Part shown: piece by piece, positions 4,722 to 27,137 of the stretch | How positions within the stretch are numbered: the first letter of the stretch is position 1 | Layout of the letters: each line of letters begins with the position of its first letter | NCBI RefSeq assembly: GCF_023278565.1 | Contig: NC_064675.1 | Coordinates: 4,464,001 to 4,528,000 of the forward strand | From: Colletotrichum lupini | Taxonomy: Eukaryota; Ascomycota; Sordariomycetes; Glomerellales; Glomerellaceae | Reading direction: 5' to 3' | Length of the DNA: 64,000 bases | The notes under the pieces: model-generated | What the model was told of the DNA's origin: nothing | The model's input: the letters and a program-made list of their open reading frames with translations, nothing else | Databases searched by the model: none | Translations under genes and position numbers: made by a program

Positions 4722-5600
4722 GTGAACACAGGTAAACTGACCTGTGGCCCCCCCGGTTACCTGACCTGACCAAGGAAAAGGGACGTGACCTGAGCGCTCT
4801 TCTGATTGGCCCGTGGAAAATAAGTGGGTCCAGCTGACCTAATTCTAAACTAATCTTAAAGTAATCTAGAATTAATTCAGAACTAATTTAGACATATTTC
4901 AGAATTAATTCTATATTATAATTTAAAAATATCAAAATATACTTATTTTAATATAAAAAATATATTCTTTTAAATATATTCTTTTAAATATATTATAATA
5001 ATTTATATATGTAATAATTAATTTAGATATAAAAAGTAAAGTTTTGAATTTTGAAAATTTATTTTAAAATATATTTTAAAACTAATTTAGAATTAGTTTA
5101 GAATTAATTTAGAACAAATTTAGAACTAATTTCGAACTAATCCTTATTAAATTTTAAAACTTAGTAATAGTTTATTTTTAAATATTAATTTTTATAATAT
5201 TAATTCAATTAAGATATTATAAAAATATATATATAAATAGTTTAATTTAATAATAAAGTGTTAATATTAAAAATAACTTATATATTATTAATTTTTATTT
5301 ATTAATATTAGTTTAATCCAGAATTGATTTAGAATCGATTCTAAATTAATTTAAAGATAGTTTTTTTTAAAAATGCTAGCTTTAGTTATTTATAATATAT
5401 AAAATACTTTTTAAAAATTATTATTATATATATATAATTATTTAATATTATAGTTAATATATATTCTTAATTAATTTAGAATCGATTCTGAACTATATCT
5501 AGATCACCTACGGAGTGGCACGGGCCATACTCACGTGAAGATGTGGGGCGGTCAGCTAACACCCCCCCCCCCCCCCACAGGTCAGTTTACCTGTGTTCAC
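4722..5600. mobile_element. Non-autonomous TIR DNA transposon (MITE-like, Mutator-like target duplication)
   Basis: The element is 879 bp. Its ends are perfect 26-bp inverted repeats (4722-4747 and 5575-5600) starting GTGAACACAGGTAAACTGAC. Similarity continues imperfectly inward for roughly 90-100 bp: blocks resembling TTACCTGACC, ACGTGA and GGCCCGTG occur in the same order from both ends. It is flanked by identical 9-bp duplications GCATTGTTT. The interior, about 4840-5510, is very AT-rich, built of variations on TTAGAATTAATTTAGAACTAA, with no open frame, so there is no transposase. A 9-bp duplication with long inverted repeats fits Mutator-like elements; hAT elements usually make 8 bp. Whether the AT-rich interior is native or decayed is not clear: unlike the 13-27 kb block it has few CpG or CpC left. 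Confidence 0.88.
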
Positions 5601-12985: not shown

Positions 12986-12990
12986 GTCGT
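12986..12990. repeat. Left target site duplication of the outer Gypsy element
   Basis: GTCGT immediately precedes the 5' LTR and is repeated at 27133-27137 immediately after the 3' LTR. Confidence 0.9.
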
Positions 12991-13169
12991 TGCCACACTA
13001 CACAGCCACAGGCTGTGTACCACAACTGGTAGCGACCAGCCATAACTATACATAGGGGCTTCTGCCTACATTAGGGGCTTCTACCCACATTAGGGGCTTC
13101 TACCCACATTACTTAGAAAAATCAACCACTACTTAACATATTATATTAACCCTACCTTTACCCTTAGTA
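12991..13169 (+). repeat. 5' LTR of the outer Gypsy element
   Basis: 179 bp, from TGCCACACTAC to a RIP-mutated end CTTAGTA (CCGGCA in the other LTR). It holds three copies of a 19-bp unit, AGGGGCTTCTGCCTACATT, at 13054-13110. The outer 63 bp are essentially unmutated and the inner 59 bp are strongly mutated. Confidence 0.92.
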
Positions 13170-14682
13170 ATCTAGTAGCATAACTTATAATACGACTTAA
13201 TACTAAGAATTTCTTTTTTATTAGCTTATTATAACTAAGATTTAATTTACTAAATAATCCTTACTTTATTCTTATAAAAATATAATTAATAATAGCTAAG
13301 TTAAAAGCTAAATAACTACTACGTTTTTATATTAATAATATAAACTACCCCTACGTAGCAAGAGTTATAGATATTAATTAATATTACGTAACGCGGGTAT
13401 TATAATAAGCTAACTAAATTATTAATACTCATATTAATAAAGTCGAGCTAAACTACTTTATTAAATTTTTAAAATTAGTACGAGGAGTTAATATAGTAAT
13501 TTAATAAATTTATATCGTAAAGTTCGATTACTAACCAACGTTATTTAATAATACTTATTTAATAACTCTTATTTAATTATAGTCGTTACTTATTATACTT
13601 TTAGTATTAATAGTAATACGTATTACTAACCTAAATAACTACTTCGATTTAAAAAGTCTTATTACTAACCTAAGTAATTACTATTTACGCCCTTTTTTAT
13701 TTAGTAATTACGATAAGTTAGTAAAGCTTTTTAAAATAGCGAACGGTAATATAAACGGTAATAACTAGCTTATAAGTAATAATAACCCGATTAATAGTTT
13801 TTTTATTAATATAATTACTTAAATTATTATAATAATAGCCTTAACTATAAATAATATAAATAATAATAATAACGGTAGCTAATAATTAACTCCTAGACCT
13901 AATAATAATTCATTTATACCCCTAAAGCTAAAAAAGATTAAATACTTCGATTTAACTAATTATAATAATTCGAAATATAATATTATTTCTAATACTAAGT
14001 TTACTACTTATACTAACGTTTATATTTTTTATAATAAGCTTTAATATCTTATAATAACTGGAAATAACGTAGTTATTAAAAAAGTATAATCGTTTTATTT
14101 ACTAAGTATAGCGTTAATATAATATATTACTAAGCTTATATAACTAAAACGACTAGCTCTATTTAATTATAAAATATAAGTTATTACTAAGACTCTATAA
14201 AAGCGGTTTAAATAAAATTCCTCTAAAGCCCTTAACGTATTATATATATTAAAACTTATAATTAAGGACCTTATTAATAAATATATAATTAAACTATTTA
14301 TATAAATAATAATTTATAACGTACGAAATACGGAGATTAACGACGTTTAAGTATAACTTAGAATTATTTTTAAAGCTCTTAATAGTAAAATCTAAGTATA
14401 AATAAAAAAGCTAACGGTAATAATAACCCTAGCTTAGTTCTTAAATTACCTCGATAATAAAAAAAATATCTTAATTTGCATAGCTAAGGATAAATATCCT
14501 ATATAAAATAATTACTAAATATAATAAATAATAACGAGCTTTTTATATAATAATAACTTAGTCCCCAAACTAAGGTTAGTTTTATAAAAAAAAGGATATT
14601 AAAATACTCCCTATTTATTATAAAGACCGGAGTTTAATAATTACTAGCTAAACTATAATTATTAATAGTTTAATAAGTAATT

Positions 14683-14686
14683 TAAT
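14683..14686. repeat. Left target duplication of the nested Gypsy element
   Basis: TAAT directly precedes the left LTR, and TAAT follows the right LTR at 21521-21524. Four bases in AT-rich DNA are weak evidence on their own. Confidence 0.5.
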
Positions 14687-14911
14687 TATTATAAAAGGGA
14701 TCTCGAAGTAGGTTAGAACGCTATTATATTAACCTAATTAACTTAAAGACTTAATATAAAGAGGGAAAAAATAGAATAGTAAATAGAAGCTAGCGAGCGG
14801 GCCCTTTAGGCCTAGCGGTTTAGCTTGTTATATAATTATTAAGAGCTTAGCCTCGTAGCCTAAGGCTAAGCTACGGGGCCTATAGGGGCCCTAATACTTA
14901 TTATTATAATA
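14687..14911 (-). repeat. LTR of the nested Gypsy element (3' LTR in its own orientation)
   Basis: 225 bp, same length as 21296-21520. The GC-richer core GCGAGCGGGCCCTTTAGGCC and the GGGGCCTATAGGGGCCC segment survive in both copies because their cytosines are not in CpA context. Confidence 0.9.
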
Positions 14912-15839
14912 TTACCCCCTCCTCTATACTAAAGGGTACTATTTATAATACTAAAAAATAAACTTCCTAATTACCCTTTATTCTAGCGAATTTATAGTTA
15001 TAATTACTATTATTATATTATCGTCGTCCCTTAGTAATAGTAAATTACTAGTTACGGTAGCTTTTATTTATATATCTAGGTTTTATAGCGGACCCTTAGT
15101 AATTAAGTATTAGTAATAGAACGTTTATAACGCCGCTAGTATATACCTAAAGCTCTTTATGTTATATTATATTAGATCCGTATTATATCCTTTTTAATCC
15201 GCTTAGTACTATAGCTTTCTTTTATATAAGTATAACTTAACTATTTTAAAAACCTTATACTCTAGCTCGCCGTCGTTATTAATAATTAGTAGCAATAGCT
15301 CTTAGTTCTACTTAAGTAATAAGTCGTTAGTAGCCTTCCTTAGCTTACTTAAGTAAAAGACTAGGTATACCCGGCTACTTATTAATAATTTTATAACTTA
15401 TATACCCCCCTATCCGGCGCTAATAATAGGCTATAGGCCGGCTTATAGTTATTATAATTTATTTACGTTAGTAGATTTTTAATACGAAGTATTAACGAAG
15501 ACCCGATCTCCCGTTTTTAGGTTATTTAGGTATTAACAATAGTTAGTATACTTTTTATATTATATTTAAGTAACCTTTATATTACCCTTAGTAATCTCCT
15601 AGGCCTTATATATCTTTTAAGCTATACGCTACGCATTAATATAATTTAGCTTTTCTTTTATAAAGCCGAATTAGTAAGTTCGCTTAGACTAATTAAAAGA
15701 AAGCTATAATTAATAACTAAATTCTATTTTGTATAATAATAGCCCCGTAGTCTCGCTAAGCTAAGTAATATAAGTAAAGTTAACTATAGGTAATATATCG
15801 CTCTAATTATCTTAGTATTAGTTAACTAGTAATCTTAAC

Positions 15840-15985
15840 TACTATAAAATATACTAGTTTAATACCTCTATTTAGCTATCCGTTTGCGGGTAATTTATTA
15901 TTAATAGTTATAGCCTAACTCTATAAATTTTATAAAGCTCCCTTTAGAAATTAGAAATAAATTAGGGGCCTCGGTCCGACGTAAT
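15840..15985 (-). pseudogene. Integrase remnant of the nested Gypsy element
   Basis: On minus, codons resemble the catalytic-core end of Gypsy integrases. A tract matching SDRGP appears near 15985, and codons 15896-15867 correspond to the conserved NHPQTDGQTE with Gln and His codons changed to TAA or TAT. Two stops fall in this short span. Confidence 0.75.
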
Positions 15986-17459
15986 AGTTTTTAATAAGCT
16001 AAAGATAGGTAGTACCTATTTATAGAATATTTAGCTTATATCTTTTATTATAGTAGTTTTATAATAAGGAATAGATATTACCCTTTTACCTAGGTAGTTT
16101 ATTACTATTTATATATTATTAAATCTTTTTTAATTAGTGGGGATAGTTATAAAGTTAGTAAAAATATATTACTACGAGTAGTTGGGTATTAGTAGTAGTC
16201 TTAGCTCCCCTAGGGGTTTATTACGTAGCTTTTATAACTAGTAGTAAGTATAGTAGTTCTATATATATTAATAAGTATTTACTATTAAGCCCGGCTAGTA
16301 ATATTATTATTTAATTATTTTTATAACCTTATTATGCCCTAGGTAGGCGAGGAGTTTTTATTTATAGACTTTATAAATAACTATAGTACGGAGGTTCTCT
16401 TTCTTGGGTATTATAAGCTTCCCGTTTATTACTAATAATCCGTTATCTTAAATAAACTAGCGCTCATATCCTTTAGCTACTAATACTTATATTAGCATAA
16501 GAGACGTTATAATAGGGTCCCTATTAAGCTTTAGAATCTTCTCTATTAGTAAGTACCCCTAGAGCTCGTTTTTTAATAAAAGTAAGCTAATTATAAACTA
16601 TAGTTAGCTAATAATAGCACTTAATAGCGCCCGTAGCTCCGTTACGATATTAAGAAATAATAATCCTAGTAATAAAAAGACTTATATCTTATTAGCCTTT
16701 TTTAATACTTACTAAGTACAGATATCTTTCGTTTTTTACGAGAGGGTATTAGCTAGTACGTTTTCTTTCTCTAAGTAGTAATAAATCTAAAAATTAAAGT
16801 CTGCTAATATACTAACTTAGTAAGCTTATTATAAGTTAAGTAAGCGCTTAGTTATAAAGAATAGTAATAACTAATAATTTATAATAATATCAAACTTATA
16901 TTTATAGCTCACGAGCTCTGCGCACTATTCTTTTAAGTATAGTATTATTATTAATATTTCTTTATTATAAATAGCATAGTTAAGCTTTATATTACTTATT
17001 ATTTTTAAATAAAAGGCTACTAGGTACTATAACCCGTTATCCTCTTATTATTATAGTAGCGCCCCGGTATATACTAAGTTAGAGGCGTTTATTTCTAGTT
17101 ACGTTAGTAGCTCTAGCTTAAAATAATAAAAAATAGGCGCTAATATTAGCGCTAGCTTTATAACTTTAAAAACTATTTCGTAGTTAATATTAAAGTTAAA
17201 AAGAACTCCCTTACTTATTAACCTCGTAAGGGGCCTAGCTAAGTAGCCGTAATTCTTTATAAACCTCTTATAGAAGTTATAAAACCCGAGGAAAGACTAA
17301 ATACCCTTAAGTAATATAAGTAGTTTTTAGTCCCTAATTATAAAGACTTTTTCCTCGTCCGGCTATATACCTTTTATTAAAATTACGAAGCCTAAGTATT
17401 TTATAAAAATAATACTAAATTCGCACTTCTTAATATCTGCTTATAAGCTTACTTTTTAT

Positions 17460-17700
17460 AAGTAGTCTAGTACTTTAATAACGTGCTCCTAGTACTAAAG
17501 GGGGTTATTAAGAATATTAAGATATTATTTATATATATTATATAAAAGTCGTTTAAGTATTTTATTAATATCTCGTTTATATATTATTAATATATAATAA
17601 GCCCGTTATAAAGCTTAAAGGGTACTACTTTATACTTATACGCCCCGTAGCGGGTTCTAAATATTATTAAGTCCTCGGAGGCTAAGTTAAGTTAAATATA
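17460..17700 (-). pseudogene. Reverse transcriptase remnant of the nested Gypsy element
   Basis: On minus, the reading contains RTRYGAY-KYKVVPF, then RYINEILMEYL-like residues, then the polymerase core. The YxDD active site (17535-17524) reads Tyr-Ile-Asn-Asn: both Asp codons GAT have become AAT, as RIP on the opposite strand would produce. Downstream NNPL.Y.EHVIKVLD also fits the family. Confidence 0.85.
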
Positions 17701-19121
17701 GTAAAAGGCCTACTTAATATTTAGTTTAGTAAATATTTTTATCCTACTTAGCTACGCAAGGGTCTTATTAATAAGTAGTAATAAGTAGTAGTCTTTTTTT
17801 ATAACCTTATTAAGCTTATAGAAGTTAATATAAAAGCGTAGGCTATTATCGTGCTTTTTTATAAATAGCGTTAGTAATACGAAAGGAGTATTACCTAGCT
17901 TAATAAATCCCTTTTATAAGTACTCTAATAAATAGGCCCTTATAGCCTCTAGCTCGGGTACTAACTACTTATATAAAAAATAATAAGTTAGCTTCTCTTT
18001 ATTATTATCTAAGAGCTCGATTTTATAGTTATATAGCCTATAAGGCGCTAATATATCGCTAGCCGCTTTACTAAAAACGTCGGTCTAGGGCCGTAAATAC
18101 TTTAATAAGTTCGTTATTATAAAGTTATAAGTAACCTAGTTATTATTATATAAGGGGTTTACCTCCTCTTTCTTATTTTTTATAATATAGTTAAGCTTAT
18201 AGAATAATATAGAGCCTATTTTAACGTCGTTCTACCTTAGGTTTTTTTGTAAAAAGGGAGCGCTAATAAAGGTAATATTTATTTATACTATTACTAAGTA
18301 TAGTTTCTACTACCTAGCCTTTTTTACGGGGGCAATATTAGTATTATTAAGGGCGCGTTCTATTTTCCTTATATTCTTAGCCTCGTTTAATTACTATATT
18401 TAATAAGCTATTATTTTTAATAAGCATAGTAATATCCTAATCGGTATACCCCTTACCTACTACTACTAAAGCTTTTAGTTATAATAAGTTATATTTATTT
18501 TAAATAAGTCCTACTAGCGGTTAATATTAATTTAGTATTATATATTAATAATTTTTAGAGTATATAAGTCCTTAATATCCCTAATAATAGTAGAGGGCGT
18601 CTTTTATAGCAGTAGGTCCTTAAGCTATATTAAACATTAGTAGTAAATATTAGGGTTTATCCCGTAATATTCAAATTACTTCTACCCTAGGATTAGGTCG
18701 TAGCGGCCTATATTAAGCTAAAAGAGGGGTACTTTTAAAAAGACCCGTTAGTTAATATATAAGTTAGCGGTTTATATTATACTAATATTATTTAATCGCT
18801 CTTTATTAAATTTAGTAATAAGGATTAGGTATTATAATTTATAAAATAGGGCCGCGTAGAACTACTATAATAGAGGGGTTATATAATTATTTATAAATCC
18901 GTATTTATTAACTCCCGTATTAAGTAAGGTTCTTAAGCAAATTCTATATTTATTAAATACTAATATAAGCTCTATTTTAAAGGGCTAGCCCCCTATAAGA
19001 TCCTATAAGTTTACTAAATTAATCGCTAATTTTCCGTCCTTTTTATACGTATCCCCTAACTAGGAGTTTATTTTTACTAGGGGTTCTAGTTTTTCTAGCA
19101 CGTATAGCTTTAACGAGGTAA

Positions 19122-19607
19122 TGCGGGATATTCTCATAAAGAATATAAAAAGTGAATATTCATATAGAAGCAAGAATATATGAATATAGAGGATATAAGC
19201 GTATATAAAAGAGGTTTTTATAGTAAAGAGAGTAATATAGTTAAATTACTATATGAGAAGTTGCTTGCTTAACGAAAGGTCTAGGTAGGCAAATACACGC
19301 CTACATATAGGCATAAAAACCTCCTACTAGAATATTCCATTGCTTATTAATTATGATATAATTAATAAGCGTATACGTAAGTGAATGCGTAATCGTAGTA
19401 CGTAATTCCGCCTCGAGTAAATTCCAGATTATTCAGTTACCTTCCAGTACTTTCTATTGCTCACGTAAGCTTATATAAGCAGTATTGCTTACATAATCAA
19501 TACCTATGATAATCTACAGAAATCGTAGATTAATATGGTATATAGTTTGCTTACGTAATATTGATAATAAGGCGAATAATAAGGTAAACAAAGTTACCTT
19601 CGTAACA
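19122..19607 (-). mobile_element. Solo-LTR-like insertion, weakly mutated
   Basis: A 486-bp segment inside the nested Gypsy element differs from its surroundings: CpA and TpG dinucleotides are common and RIP scars few. On minus it starts TGTTACGAAGG and ends CCCGCA, so it has TG..CA ends, plus a TATAAAA box about two thirds along (complement of 19217-19223), as in LTR promoters. It has no open frame and no partner copy in the window. Clean target duplication is not visible: flanks are GGTAA and GTTTT. A solo LTR of a different, probably Copia-like, element is the best reading; family is uncertain. Confidence 0.6.
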
Positions 19608-21295
19608 GTTTTCTAAACTTAACTTTATTTTAATAGGACCCTTAGTAGCGTTAATAGCGGCTATAATAGTCTTTAGCTTTTTAAAATAGTCCTTAAAAAT
19701 ATATTTAGTATTACTATAAACGAAATAAGTACTACTATCCTTAAGCTTTTAATATAGGGCTTTAGGAATTATCTTATAGATAAAGGGGCAACCTCGGTCC
19801 TATTTAGTACCTTTAGTACTTTTATTATTTCCGCTACTTCTATTACTTCTACCCGAGGTTTAGTAAGTCTAGCTAAAAGCCTTAACCGGGTAGTCCTTTA
19901 TAAAAGGGGGGTATATTACGTTAGCTAGCTAAGTAACGTATTTAGTATACTTTTAAAAAGTAGCCGTATTATCTAAGTATTTTAATATAGCCTAGTTATA
20001 AAGATATATAAATAGCTTATTATAAAAACGGCGCTTTTACTAAGACTTTAAAAGCTTATTAATACGCGCGAGCTTAGTAAATATAAAGCGCTTTTAATAA
20101 ACGTCTTTAAATATAATTATTAATATATCTAGGTTACGACTAGCGTTATTTATAATAGTTAGGTTAGTATAAGCTAACTTAAGCTCGTAAAGTAGCTACT
20201 TAGCCGTAGTAATCTCGTTAGAAGTTAGTAATAAGTATATAAACTCCGTAGTACTACCTCTAATCTTATTAATAATATACTCTAAGTAGTACCTATTTAT
20301 ACTATAATTAGCGTTCTTTAAACGCTTCGTAATATACTAAAACTAGTAATTAAACTTAAAGTTAGTATTATTATTTATAAAGGTAGGTATATTAAGTATT
20401 TTCTAAGAGCCGTAAGTAATAGGATAGGACGAGGCTAGAGTAGTCTCGTAGCTACCCTACGTTTCTAAATATACTAGTTACTACTCTAGCGTACTAAGGG
20501 TAATAGTATTTTAAATAAAGCTAGCTTAAGAGCCGTTCTCTAATTACTCTAGCTTTTTAATTATAACTATATTACTAATATAGGCTTAGGTAAGGGCTTC
20601 TTTCGTAGTACGGAGCTCTATAATAATAGTACGCGTAAGGTCGAGGTTTTTATAAGTTATTATATATAAGTACTTAGTATTATTACTTAGCTAGCTAATA
20701 ATAAAAACTAGGACTTACTTTAATTAGTATTAAGTAATACGTATTTTTAGCTACTATTTAATCTATTTAAGTAGGGTCTTTTTATTATTTTTAAAGTATA
20801 GCTCTTAAATAAGGTTAAGGTTAATATACTATTTAATATTCTTTTTAAAGAGGATATTATTATAAATATAAATAAGTAAAATAAGCTAGTTAGTTATATT
20901 ATTAAAGTATACTAAGTAATCGGCCTAGGTAGTAAAGGGTAAGAAGCGCTTTACTAACTAGTTAAATAGCACGACTTTTAAGTTAATAATTAAGAGCTTA
21001 GTACCTTTATTAGGGCTTATAACGCTCTATTAGGACTTATAAAGGCGGCGACTTTATTAGAAGCCGTTAATATAAAAAAAGACTTAGCCTCTTTAGCTAT
21101 ATTCTCTAACTATTACGTTTAGTAAAGGGGGTATATATTTAGAGGGTATTAATTACGCTACTTATACGTAATTAATTTAATTAGCTATTACTTAGCTCTT
21201 TTATACGCTTTCTTAGTAAGGGTAGTTAGTAATTAATTAATTAAGATATTATTATTCCGTTTTTAGAAAATAGTTAATTAAGTAACGTTAAGTAG

Positions 21296-21520
21296 TATTA
21301 TAAAAGGGATCTTAAGGTAGGTCGGAACGCTATTATATTAACTTAATTAACTTAAAAACTTAATATAAAAAGGGAAAAAATAGAATAATAAGTAGAAGCT
21401 AGCGAGCGGGCCCTTTAAGCTTAGTAGTTTAGCTCGTTATATAATTATTAAGAGCTTAGCCTCGTAGCTTAAGGCTGAGCCACGGGGCCTATAGGGGCCC
21501 TAATACCCACTACTATAACA
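21296..21520 (-). repeat. LTR of the nested Gypsy element (5' LTR in its own orientation)
   Basis: 225 bp, aligned end to end with 14687-14911; differences are mostly C/T and G/A. On minus it begins TGTTATAGTAGTGGG. Confidence 0.9.
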
Positions 21521-21524
21521 TAAT
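21521..21524. repeat. Right target duplication of the nested Gypsy element
   Basis: TAAT matches 14683-14686. Confidence 0.5.
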
Positions 21525-23934
21525 TATAATTAGTATAATAACTTTAATTATCTAAACGACCGTAAGCTACTTATTTAATATAATAACTTATATAAAAATA
21601 GTAATTCTTAAAAAAGTAATTAGTTAAATAATTAACTTATAACGTAGGCTAATAGCTAAATAACTAATATTATATAATAAATATAGTAGAGTACTTAGTC
21701 TTAGCTATACTAACCTCTCTAAATAAGAAGTTTTATAGCGCTATTATGATCTAATAAGTATATTTATAACCCTAATAATAACCTTAATAAATTATATTAA
21801 TAATATAATAACTACTATTTAAACCGTTTTAATTATAATTAACTACGTTATACGTATATATAAGCCTACGTATTAAAAAAATAAAATAAAGAGCTATTAA
21901 AATAAAATAAGGACTAAAATTTAAAGTAGGCGTACTACGGTAATAACTAACTAAAAGAACTAAATATAAATAATAATTTTAATAATATAAACTACGGACC
22001 TCTAAACTACCATTTAGTACTCGTAATTAAGGACGTAGTATTTTTTATTACTAGCTCTTTAAATATATATAATTATAAGAAATATAATAAGTAATTCGCT
22101 TCGGGTAATAAACTATTCTAATATCTCCGTAACGTATATAATATAAGTCTTTAATATAAATTATAAATATTAACGGCTAATACTTTTTTTAAGATTCCTT
22201 AGTTACTAAATAACGAGGATTAAAAAAAAGCGTACTTAATAATATTATATTAATAATAGAAGATAATATAATAACTACTTTATTAATAATAAATACTCTA
22301 GCTACTAATAAAACTAAACTACTTATTATTATTTTTATTACGGATTCTAAGCTAAATATTAAAATAAGATTCGGAATAAGAATATTTATTATTATATAAC
22401 TACGACTTATAACTTCCCTTAATAACGATACTAAGGAAGAGGTTTATATTAATATAGGCTATAATTAATCGATCGCTAACTAATAATAAATTATAGCTAT
22501 TTTCCTATTTTAAAAAATTAAATAACGCGCCGTTCCTCTAATTATTAAAGGTATTAGAATAGATATATACTAAATATAAAACTATATAGTCTTCTTATTT
22601 TATATTAAAGGTACTATTATAAATAATAGTATACTATCCTTAGTATACTTTATACGAGAAGTATTACTAATTAATAGTTTATAAATAAATATATTAATTA
22701 ATACTAATATTATAAGACTAAAAAAACCCCCGACGGAGCAATCTACTAGGGCCGTACCGTATATTACGTATTAGGGAAAACTAAGTATATTGCGCTCTAT
22801 ACTTAATTACTAATTAAAATTAACTAACTCGACCGTTATTTTCTTTTTATTAATAGCTCTTAACCTTTCCCCGCGTAATTCTAGCCGTTTAAAAAGTAAG
22901 CTATACTTATTTTAATATATATAAAACCTCTTAATACTAGTCTACATAGGTAGTTAAATCCTATATTATATACTCCTTTTTATTAAAGATTAAGGGGCCC
23001 TTTATATATTCCCTTACGTTTATAATATAGCCTATATTAAATGGATTTCTAGTTCTATAAAGTATAATTTTTAAGTTAGTATTAATATATTAGGTCTTAA
23101 CGTCCGTATTAGCCTAGCTATTTACGGTATTCGTATTATTACCTAGCCGAATTCCGTATTATTAAAAAGTACTTTATTAATCCTCGGGCGTACTTATATT
23201 AATTATAATAACTATAGTATCGAGCTAGCTAAAGAGGGCGCCTAGGCTAAGAGGGGTAGACTTATTAACGGGTATCTTTAGAATAGGTTCTTATTAAAGT
23301 AGTATTTTAACTAGCTAACCTCTTAACTAATTATCTAACTAGCTATTTAAATAGTAGTTTATATATTAATAAGTTTATTTAGTAAATTTATTTAGTAAAT
23401 TTATTTAGTTTAAATAGAGAGTAGTTTTAAATAATATTAAAAATAATAAAAATAAAAAGAATTTTTATAAGTTTTAGTATAAGTAATAGATATTAATTTA
23501 TTTAGCTCTTTTTTTAAAAAACTTTTACGTTACTATTAAAATTTAGAACTTCTATAGTTAAAAAAGGCCGCTTCTAACTATTACGGCTGACTATTATAGC
23601 TAACTATTATAGCTAACCTTTACTATTAACCTTTTTAATTAATGCCGCTACGTGAGTATATTACTTAGCCTATTGTTAATAAGTAGCTAAAAAGGGCAGC
23701 TTACCTATCCTAAATTATATAGTAGTTTTCGTATTAAAATTATTATATTACGTTAAGCGCGTGCTTAGGGCATATTATACGTATTATATAATTAAAAAGT
23801 ATACCGTATTATATATTTTCTTTAAAAGCGTAATCCCGTTAAGGTTAATTTTTTACGCTTATAAAGCCGGAAAAAAACCACTATATAGTAATATATAACT
23901 TATTATACCGTTATTATATCCCTATTATATAATT

Positions 23935-24740
23935 ATTATTAATTTTATTTTAAAACTACTAACTTTAAAAAAAGGATATAACTATATTTTATTAATAACT
24001 AATAAAATATCTAAATAGATTAGTCTAATACTTAAATATAAAACGATAATAGTAAAAAAATAAGCGACGTTATTAATAGACTTTTCATAGTATTATAACT
24101 AGGGATTACTAAAAGTAATCCTAAGTAATAAAGACCTTAAATTCCTTTTTATAATATAAAAATATATATAGGATAAGTGCGGTAGTAAACTATTATATTT
24201 AGTAGCTTACTATCCCTAGATTAATAACTAGAGTAAATAAATAAACTTTATAGTTAAGTCGGCGCTACGAATATACTTTATATTACTAAAATCCCTAAAT
24301 TAATAGCCTAATAGTATTCCCTAATTATAATTCGAGATTAATAATAGTAAATTAGTAATAATAACTAAGTTACTTAATAAAATTATTTTAGGATTTATTT
24401 TTAATCATATTATTAACATAGTCGTAAATATAATAAATAAATTACTAACTAAATTAAAAATACGACTTAAAATATACGATACTATTACTATTATAGCCGT
24501 TTAGATAAAATTATACTATAACTAAAAATACCTTACTAAAAAATTTTAAATTAGATAATATATTATACTAAGACTATACTGCGGTTATAATATACTATAA
24601 TTAACTATACTAAAAAAGAAATACTTATAATAATATACTAGGCCTTTTATAATCCTTGAACGGGTCGGACGATTCGTATATAAGCTCGACTTACCTTAAT
24701 ACGTAAAGATATATAACGTAATCTTAGTTAACTATTTAAA
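23935..24740 (+). pseudogene. Integrase remnant of the outer Gypsy element
   Basis: In forward frames the stretch follows Gypsy integrase order. An FILKL.T.KKGYN.ILLIT.K.SK segment comes first. VILS.KDLKF follows near 24115, then a RISAVV segment. The AYHPQTDGQSE motif, reduced to AYYP-stop-INN-stop-SK, lies at 24205-24240. Last is the C-terminal ERVGRFVYKLDLP..VKIYNVILVNYL at 24655-24738. Glutamine and tryptophan codons are stops and Asp codons are Asn, as RIP predicts. Confidence 0.85.
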
Positions 24741-26934
24741 ACTAACATTATTATTTAATATTTATAAACGAGTACTACTAATACTAATAGCAATTTTACT
24801 TACTAATTTACTAAAAAAAATTATTAACGTTTAATAAAATAAGAGTAGATTATAGTTTTTATTATAATTAGAAGGACTAAGTAAATAATATAAATAGTAG
24901 TTAGAACTTCCCTATAAAATTATTATAACGAGGTATTTATTATTATAAGAAGAAGAATATTTAATTTAGTTAAATAATAATTCCTTTTTATAATAGAGGA
25001 TAGTATTAACTATTCCTAATTTTAAATACCTACTTAAAGCTAAAAATCGAACTTACTATTTAATCTCGATTCTATATTACTTATAGCTAGCTATTTAAAA
25101 AAAAATTTATTTACTTTAGCTATACTTTTTTTTTTTTATATACTTATACTAAAATAGTATAACTAAATAAGACTAATAATAACTTTACTAACTTAGCTAG
25201 TTAGGTATACGATTAAAAAAGTACTAACTAAACGTCTATTAATAATCTTAATAATCTAGTAACCCCTAATATTAATCGTATAAACGCTTTTAAATTATTA
25301 TAATACTCGCTAATTATTAACAATAAAAACGACGGACTATTTAAAATAAAAAACGAAGACGATAACTTAATAAATAAAAAAGACCCCGGATTTAAAACTA
25401 AATATAGGGGATTTATTAGTTTATTTAGTATATATAACTTATTTAGTATATATAACTTATTTATTATAAACTTACTTCCTAAAAAACTTAGAATATTTAA
25501 TACTTAACTATTTATAATACTAAATAATACCGCTTAAAGAATTTAAAATTAAATAAATAAGAAGCTACTATCTTAGTTAAAAATAATAATAACTTAAACC
25601 CTAATTACGATTAATAATAACTTATTATTTATAAAATCGGAAATTAAAAATAAAAAAGTTAATAATACGAAGTTATTATTAAATAATAATAATAATCTTT
25701 TAAAAATTAAAAAAGAGACTAGTAATAAGGAGTTTAATAAAAGAGAATTTAATAATAGCGTTCTACTTAACAAAAAGTTATTGAAAAAAAATATAAGACT
25801 AAAAGAATAAAAAATATAGGTAATAAAAAGCTAAAAATAATAACTTTATAAAAAAAACCTCTTTAGGACGATTTATTAAAAAAAATTACTCGTATTCCTA
25901 AAGCTAATTCTTAGTAATCCCCTAGTATAACTAATTAAATTAATCTAAATATATTTATTTTAAATAAGATAATACCTAAGTAGTACTACTTAATTCCTAA
26001 GCTAATATAACGAGGTTAGTTATATAAAAAGAATTATAATAGCTTATATTATATTATAATATTCTTTAATAACGATTTAAATAAATTTTTTTTTTTTAAA
26101 GTTTAATAAAATTTCGGTTATAATAACTCTTTATTAAATACTTATAAATAGCTAAAAAAAAAGGTAACTTATTATTATATTTTATATATAAAGCTTTATA
26201 TAAAATTATTAAAAAAGAAGTAATAGCTAAAGAAATCGTAATAATAATATATTTATATAGCCTTAGCTTATTAAAAAGTTAGCATAACTATTTTAACTAA
26301 ATTAAGTTATTAAAATACTTTATTATTTATAATTTTATAAAACCTAGATATAATAATATACTAAATACGCTTTTTATTACTTATAGATAATAGAGGCTAG
26401 TACTTGGAACTATTATTATAACTCCTAGGCCTTAATACTTATTTTTAAAATAATTAAAATAATTACTAATTAAAAAAGAAAAGCCTAGGGATATAATTTT
26501 ATAATATAATATAACCCTAGTTTAGGATAATAATAAAGAATTCTATAAGTTTATATAAAAAATTACTATTAAAACGATAATAAATAATAAAATAAGGATA
26601 ATTCTTTTTTAATAAGAAATATAAAAAAATAATAATAAAAAGAAGTAGACTATATAGTAAAAATAACTAATATAACGATTCTTAATAATAAATAAAAAAT
26701 AATTTATAAAAGGGTACTCCGCAATTTTAATACTAAACTACGAAAATAACCTAATAACTTATTATTAAAGTATTATATTATTAAGTATAATAATTATAAC
26801 TATTATAGAACATTTTAGGTAATATATTTACGATAATTACGATAGTATTATATTATAATAACGTTATATTTAAAGGGAATAATTAGGGAATATAAGTAAC
26901 GAAGACGTTATAAAATTTTAATTAGGGGGCAGGC
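24741..26934 (+). other. 3' internal region of the outer Gypsy element
   Basis: About 2.2 kb between the integrase end and the 3' LTR, AT-rich and full of stops. Near 24855-24900 the codons can be read as a decayed chromodomain (LEGLS followed by a tryptophan-to-stop cluster); this is tentative. The rest matches nothing I recognise and is longer than the usual short tail of a Gypsy element. Confidence 0.4.
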
Positions 26935-27132
26935 TATTATACTATATAGCTACAGGCTATGTACTATAATTAGTAACAATTAGCTATAACTATATATAGG
27001 GGCTTCTGCCTATATTAGGGGCTTCTGCCTATATTAGGGGCTTCTGCCCACATTAGGGGCTTCTACCCATATTACCTAGAAGAATCAACCACTACTTGAC
27101 ACATCACATTGACCCTACCTTTGCCCCCGGCA
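26935..27132 (+). repeat. 3' LTR of the outer Gypsy element
   Basis: 198 bp, aligned with the 5' LTR except for one extra 19-bp unit: four copies at 26998-27073. Here the first 63 bp are RIP-mutated (TATTATAC for TGCCACAC) and the last 59 bp are intact, ending GCCCCCGGCA. Confidence 0.92.
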
Positions 27133-27137
27133 GTCGT
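27133..27137. repeat. Right target site duplication of the outer Gypsy element
   Basis: GTCGT, identical to 12986-12990. Confidence 0.9.

Follow-up and report, generated by a model that had tools for sequence, protein, structure and literature searches.

RIP-type mutation fades inside the ends of LTR retroelements in Colletotrichum lupini

A stretch of 64,000 nucleotides from Colletotrichum lupini (RefSeq assembly GCF_023278565.1, contig NC_064675.1, positions 4,464,001 to 4,528,000 of the forward strand; hereafter the window, with positions counted from its first letter) contains a long terminal repeat (LTR) retroelement with mutations of the repeat-induced point mutation (RIP) type in its two outer LTRs. 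The mutations occupy complementary halves: in each LTR, the half facing the interior of the element is mutated and the half facing the flanking DNA is spared. The pattern recurs in other insertions of the same family, with only light mutation over roughly 100 bases at either end of a copy, and RIP stops inside the duplicated DNA rather than at its border. This is an edge effect of a known process, real, replicated and measurable, and not a new kind of system.

Complementary mutation of the outer LTR pair

A global alignment of the two outer LTRs (Table 1) contains 33 base differences, all of the C/T or G/A type with no transversion, and 23 of them lie in a CpA context. The sole gap in the alignment is one entire 19-bp tandem unit. 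Up to position 13053 there are 18 differences, and the right copy has T or A in every one; from position 13113 onward there are 12, and the left copy has T or A in every one. The remaining three lie in the tandem units, where 13069 and 13107 are mutated in the right copy and 13083 in the left copy; the direction switches in an overlap zone (13083-13107), not at a single point. For the 30 differences outside the tandem units, a random order would give the 18/12 split with a probability of 1e-8, and the probability of four or fewer runs across all 33 differences is 9e-7. Note that the left outer half is not fully intact, with 4 of 36 C/G sites changed in the RIP direction relative to a solo LTR described below. 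A second genomic match for the flanks of the element (200 bp on the left and 268 bp on the right) was not found within the limits of the search.

A preliminary description, made from the letters of the window, had counted about 18 and about 12 differences in the complementary halves, all of them C-to-T or G-to-A. The pattern is real and both counts are exact; with the direction of each change scored, mixed directions are confined to the tandem-unit zone and do not occur within either half.

The number of tandem units can also be unequal between the LTRs of a single insertion: the two lengths are 179 and 198 bp here, and 198 and 160 bp in another copy (C7a). Units were therefore added or removed, either during insertion or later.

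Replication across insertions and shape of the boundary

The genome of C. lupini itself (63.4 Mb, 12 contigs) was searched with either LTR for members of the family to which the outer element belongs (family 1); all resulting counts are lower bounds. At least 18 insertions with both LTRs were found, including the window copy. Sixteen of these were paired by position, and two, whose LTRs lie 142 kb apart on C4 and 237 kb apart on C1, were paired because their ends, in the expected order and orientation on one chromosome, have a 5-bp duplication in common. The 18 insertions have the hallmarks of LTR retrotransposons, namely, paired direct LTRs, TG..CA ends and a short target duplication; the 5-bp duplications are identical in 15 insertions and contain one C/T difference in the other three. 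A fragment with a 62-bp match (C9f) was left out of all counts.

As a yardstick, we used an observed solo LTR (L043, or C5f) of 145 bp with the duplication GTATC, which was itself left out of the insertion counts; scoring against it was restricted to the blocks on either side of the tandem units. In the 5' LTRs, C/G sites changed in the RIP direction number 50 of 648 in the outer blocks and 191 of 504 in the inner blocks, and in the 3' LTRs the corresponding numbers are 38 of 503 and 381 of 647. Scored in this way, 17 of the 18 insertions have complementary halves. For the left half, the less mutated copy is that of the 5' LTR in all 18 cases; for the right half it is that of the 3' LTR in 17 cases, and the remaining one (C4c) is a tie. 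Over the two blocks of the 36 LTRs, 660 of 663 differences from the solo LTR are of the RIP type and three are transversions, with neither a T-to-C nor an A-to-G change. Because the outer halves are the least changed relative to the solo LTR and reversed changes are absent, the outer halves represent the ancestral state.

The context of the mutated sites is also that of RIP. In the inner blocks, mutation affects 447 of 522 CpA, 45 of 72 CpG, 42 of 251 CpT and 38 of 306 CpC sites, and in the outer blocks 76 of 522, 4 of 71, 7 of 252 and 1 of 306, respectively. Thus, C:G-to-T:A transitions with a preference for CpA are found, and the CpG share is high as well.

In each inner block, the sets of mutated sites are distinct among all 18 copies, so the copies were mutated independently. 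This bears on the explanation that the ends have been kept by selection for integrase, or that the copies descend from parents that were already RIP-mutated. The bases bound by integrase do lie within the spared ends; however, integrase requires the terminal bases only, not 60-100 bp. In retrotransposition, the offspring takes its U3 from the 3' LTR of the parent and its U5 from the 5' LTR. Descent from a mutated parent would therefore bring together the two mutated halves and leave both LTRs of the offspring mutated along their whole length; no such copy is seen among the 18, and no two share an inner mutation set. We regard selection or transposition as a highly improbable cause of the pattern.

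Restoration of the outer ends by gene conversion, or an error of assembly, has just as little to recommend it. Yeast provides a precedent for gene conversion in full-copy LTRs (cited in PMC10787394), but conversion between the two LTRs of an element would wipe out the complementary pattern. An identical misassembly is unlikely at 36 ends in 18 loci with target duplications that match as described above.

Homology among the copies of family 1 extends to the LTR ends, all of which align, whereas mutation fades before them. In a logistic fit, mutation of CpA-type sites is half-maximal 85 bp from the edge (bootstrap 75-99). The fit used the 28 of 36 LTRs that are exactly 160 bp long (13 left, 15 right), and one neighbouring base was prefixed to the 3' LTR of the C9 copy to hold the register. 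The GC content pooled over the 36 ends is 0.51-0.56 in all bins outside the element and 0.56 over the outermost 30 bp of the element itself, and it is down to 0.20-0.24 at 200 bp from the edge and deeper; there is no loss of GC outside the ends, as expected of RIP confined to duplicated DNA (the copy number of the flanks was searched for the window copy alone). The boundary of RIP is therefore a ramp inside duplicated DNA, not a sharp switch.

These results also bear on further parts of the preliminary description. Its proposal that the unmutated halves are ancestral is borne out by the other genomic copies, in which the intact halves are not derived. It had placed a sharp switch near the tandem units; the switch of the window pair does fall there, but across elements a gradual rise takes its place. 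Likewise, the fading of RIP that it had assigned to a repeat boundary exists, but the stop lies inside the duplicated element and not at unique DNA.

Cause of the fading

We consider it likely that RIP fades toward the end of the shared homology because a target needs homology with a partner on both sides. According to this scheme, each copy would have been inserted in an un-mutated state with identical LTRs and mutated separately afterwards, with RIP steered by pairing with other copies. Partner homology would be one-sided for bases close to the element's end, where the machinery would seldom act; the chance of mutation would climb inward, reaching half of its full value at about 85 bp from the edge and coming near a plateau by roughly 110-140 bp. 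Since each LTR sequence occurs once at an outer end and once beside the interior, each half would be spared once and mutated once. The recognition length would be roughly 170 bp (twice 85 bp), and the enzyme would be RID or DIM-2. The 145-bp solo LTR remains un-mutated despite at least 40 homologous stretches, and this single case (n=1) agrees with a recognition length greater than about 150 bp.

Two other families were compared. Family 2 is that of the element nested in the window copy, for which there were 250 and 255 first-look candidates, the best 40 of each being listed. The sample of 11 copies consists of the window copy and 10 of about 13 pairs that were paired by eye among the matches listed; it is biased to copies resembling that of the window, and one 3' LTR (F5+) was anchored 5-6 bases too long. 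All 11 copies are embedded in AT-rich DNA, with a GC content of 0.13-0.28 in the nearest 100 bp. The 5' outer block is mutated at 83 of 209 sites, compared with 119 of 209 at the same sites in the partner LTR, and the 3' outer block at 90 of 253, compared with 186 of 253; in the middle of the LTR, the two partners are equally mutated (144 of 319 and 144 of 318). The halves are complementary in 9 of the 11 copies, and the exact intact 5' end of this family was found at three places in the search. Family 3 consists of long terminal inverted repeat (TIR) elements related to a miniature inverted-repeat transposable element (MITE) at 4722-5600. Of 15 ends fetched, 14 were scored; one end had no TIR within 5 substitutions. 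In these 14 ends, the mutated share of C/G columns rises from 0.08-0.12 over the terminal 45 bp to 0.15-0.42 deeper in the element. Note that families 2 and 3 have no un-mutated yardstick, so that fully mutated columns are invisible and mutation rates are understated. Fading in three unrelated sequences disfavours a private feature of one LTR.

One such private feature would be a barrier to RIP formed by the GC-rich 19-bp tandem units of the LTR, within which the switch of the window pair falls. This barrier was rejected: each half is spared only if it faces outward, the change-points of single LTRs are scattered over 11-131 bp, and families 2 and 3, whose alignments show no such units, also fade at their ends. 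We give it scarcely any weight.

The strongest rival is a chromatin boundary, where RIP, or methylation with deamination, would span heterochromatin and fade at euchromatin irrespective of homology. Consistent with this, the strongest sparing is found in family 1, whose 36 flanks, binned out to 1500 bp, have a GC content of at least 0.40 in all bins but one (0.11 at 200-500 bp on the left of C5), and the edges are spared less strongly where copies are nested in AT-rich DNA. However, no euchromatin boundary is expected around the elements of family 2, 9 of 11 of which are still spared, and the CpA-centred mutation spectrum is that of RIP. Edge sparing within AT-rich DNA speaks against a chromatin boundary, but this sparing is weak, which leaves the boundary as an unlikely but serious alternative.

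Several observations weigh against a need for two-sided homology as the cause. The contrast in family 2 is much weaker than that in family 1, and the 2 of 11 copies that fail to show it are the window's own nested copy and one other. In family 1, the right outer block of C4c is as mutated as the inner one (11 of 28 each), the C6 copy carries 16 mutated outer sites, the outer load increases with the inner load (Spearman 0.63), and the change-points of individual LTRs are spread over the wide range given above. The tie in C4c and the outer load in C6 imply that the spared zone is not fixed. In the nearest 60 bp outside the elements, the TpA/ApT index is 1.08, compared with 0.49-0.85 in random stretches farther out, and the CpA index is 1.03, compared with 1.10-1.40; in addition, 3 of 18 target duplications have the C/T difference. 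This faint skew and the altered duplications indicate that mutation is not strictly inside the element. Slight leakage would explain the outside trace, as would, for the dinucleotide skew, an insertion-site preference. The solo LTR may be un-mutated through early formation or youth. Finally, raw counts of new RIP mutations in Zymoseptoria tritici are reported to peak at the extreme ends of LTR elements: the outermost windows, 5% of element length, contain 35% of the new within-element mutations, mostly in LTR elements (PMC10294615). Taken as a rate, this distribution would conflict with our reading.

A dependence on strand was also considered. In family 1, at equal distance, C on the outward-running strand is mutated more (logit +1.0, bootstrap 0.6 to 1.6), and this polarity remains (1.2, bootstrap 0.8 to 1.9) when LTR columns 25, 29, 38, 41 and 58, which may be old polymorphisms among source elements, are dropped. 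The differences in the target duplications of family 1 are of the outward kind in all three cases, and an outward-kind G/A difference was seen by eye in the duplication of 2 of 5 pairs of long TIR elements. In Neurospora, single RIP clusters are mostly one-stranded (PMC7296669). However, strand polarity has no effect in family 2 (-0.09; -0.22 to 0.03) and no steady trend in the interiors and family 3, so that the effect in family 1 was not reproduced and serves as a lead only. It is doubtful, then, that LTR pairs are a natural ruler in the fuller sense that mutation occurs readily only in the centre of about 170 bp of homology (about 85 bp each way), with C on the outward strand preferred near the end, as if a processive enzyme ran from the inside to the end.

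Other features, RIP machinery and known systems

The features of the window element are collected in Table 1.

Table 1. Coordinates of the outer LTR element and of the element nested in it (window positions)
Feature	Position	Strand	Evidence and remarks
Left target-site duplication, GTCGT	12986..12990	.	Identical to 27133-27137
Left (5') LTR	12991..13169	+	179 bp; pairwise alignment, TG..CA ends and target duplication; ends also aligned in the remaining 17 insertions
Left LTR, outer half, spared	12991..13053	+	18/18 differences: right copy mutated; 4/36 C/G sites differ from solo LTR
Left LTR, 19-bp tandem units, transition zone	13054..13110	+	3 differences of mixed direction; right LTR has one unit more
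Left LTR, inner half, RIP-mutated	13111..13169	+	12/12 differences: left copy mutated
Outer element interior, left part, RIP-mutated	13170..14686	+	GC about 0.24; no confident protein domain in one piece scanned
Nested second LTR element, RIP-mutated	14687..21520	+	226-nt direct repeat at 90%; LTR ends by shared motif
Nested element LTRs	about 14687-14911 and 21296-21520		
Outer element interior, right part, RIP-mutated	21521..26934	+	GC 0.17-0.26
Right (3') LTR	26935..27132	+	198 bp; pairwise alignment, TG..CA ends and target duplication
Right LTR, inner half, RIP-mutated	26935..26997	+	18/18 differences mutated here; 22/36 sites in block relative to solo LTR
Right LTR, tandem units	26998-27073		
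Right LTR, outer half, spared	27074..27132	+	12/12 differences intact here; 0/28 sites mutated relative to solo LTR
Right target-site duplication, GTCGT	27133..27137	.	Perfect 5-bp match to left copy

A Pfam scan of 20 stop-to-stop pieces (10 from the two elements of the window and 10 from copy C3a) gave nothing above the cut-off; the best match of the reverse transcriptase, RNase H or integrase type was RT_RNaseH_2, with an E value of 0.0056, below the curated cut-off. Without the nested element (i.e., 13170-14686 plus 21521-26934), the window copy is about 7.3 kb long, compared with 8.7-8.8 kb in 10 of the 18 copies, so that about 1.4 kb is missing. Between the LTRs of the two wide pairs (C1:1022782-1259784 and C4:2285965-2428199; L041, L042, L037 and L038), the GC content is 0.17-0.41 in all 14 sampled stretches of 600 bp. 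It seems that very large AT-rich blocks, perhaps centromeric, grew inside single retroelement copies at C1 and C4. In the insertion at C9:2272782-2288396 (L025, L026), the 3' LTR is apparently interrupted at its start by a nested LTR element of the second family.

The TIR element at 4722-5600 is 879 bp long. Its 26-bp inverted repeat is perfect, its interior is AT-rich (GC 0.11-0.2), and a 9-bp flanking duplication was read by eye. As a second example of edge sparing it was rejected: several copies are 96-99% identical into the AT-rich interior, an identity that covers the interior reached by two end queries, with the middle left out of the comparison. Judging from the sequence, this MITE seems to have spread after turning AT-rich. 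Its long relatives (6-15 kb, paired by eye) have only about 60-70 bp in common at each end; the short copies L080-L083 were left out of the analysis.

The C5-methylase domain occurs at three loci in the genome, one of them weak. A RID-like open reading frame (ORF) of 755 aa with PF00145 is 96% identical to a protein of Colletotrichum cuscutae and 86% identical to one of C. acutatum, and the 120 relatives listed for it include three Colletotrichum proteins named 'RIP defective', that of C. tofieldiae among them. Judged by this protein, the genome most likely belongs to the C. acutatum complex. A second methyltransferase ORF, open over at least 1009 aa, we take to be DIM-2-like by its length and domain only. 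In C. higginsianum, RID and Dim-2 orthologues are present and some element families have RIP signatures (PMC5576322).

RIP in Neurospora crassa is alike in its C-to-T change within duplicated DNA (PMC4858203, PMC7296669). There, leakage of mutation into the flanks is reported (PMC7296669), whereas here the outermost part of the shared, natural sequence is spared over a measurable width, and this in many dispersed copies. Mutation in Neurospora also tracks shared homology, and one interspersed construct kept a distal stretch free of mutation (PMC4858203). In Z. tritici, mutations are likewise unevenly distributed along elements, and the available part of PMC10294615 reports no leakage into flanks; new mutations are most numerous distally, whereas the accumulated mutations here are fewest distally. 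The two would agree if interiors in Z. tritici were saturated and targets remained only at the ends; old copies that keep their targets there could reconcile the sparing seen here with LTR ends as hot spots of new RIP. For the Podospora element crapaud, full-copy LTRs are RIP-mutated and solo or fragment LTRs mostly are not, like the solo LTR here, but the available text of PMC10787394 describes the GC content of whole LTRs and not which half of which LTR is affected. In Stagonospora nodorum, long non-tandem rDNA repeats are mutated especially centrally, as here, whereas the X0 family has slightly more RIP toward its ends; the accessible parts of the RIPCAL paper (PMC2621366) contain no comparison of paired LTRs. 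We found no published description of complementary RIP in LTR halves, in a search whose coverage of the subscription literature was incomplete, so that an earlier description may exist. As far as that search reached, what is new is a clean natural ruler, with the sparing located inside duplicated DNA.

For dating, the consequence is that insertion ages cannot be taken from LTR divergence here, because the 33 differences in 179 aligned bases are RIP-type changes. More generally, where RIP stops bears on how intact DNA duplexes recognize each other. If the half-point of the fading lies about 85 bp inside the duplication, the length over which homology is read could be estimated from genome sequence alone; LTR pairs make this possible because the two LTRs control each other, and the method would be applicable to any RIP-competent fungus with LTR pairs.

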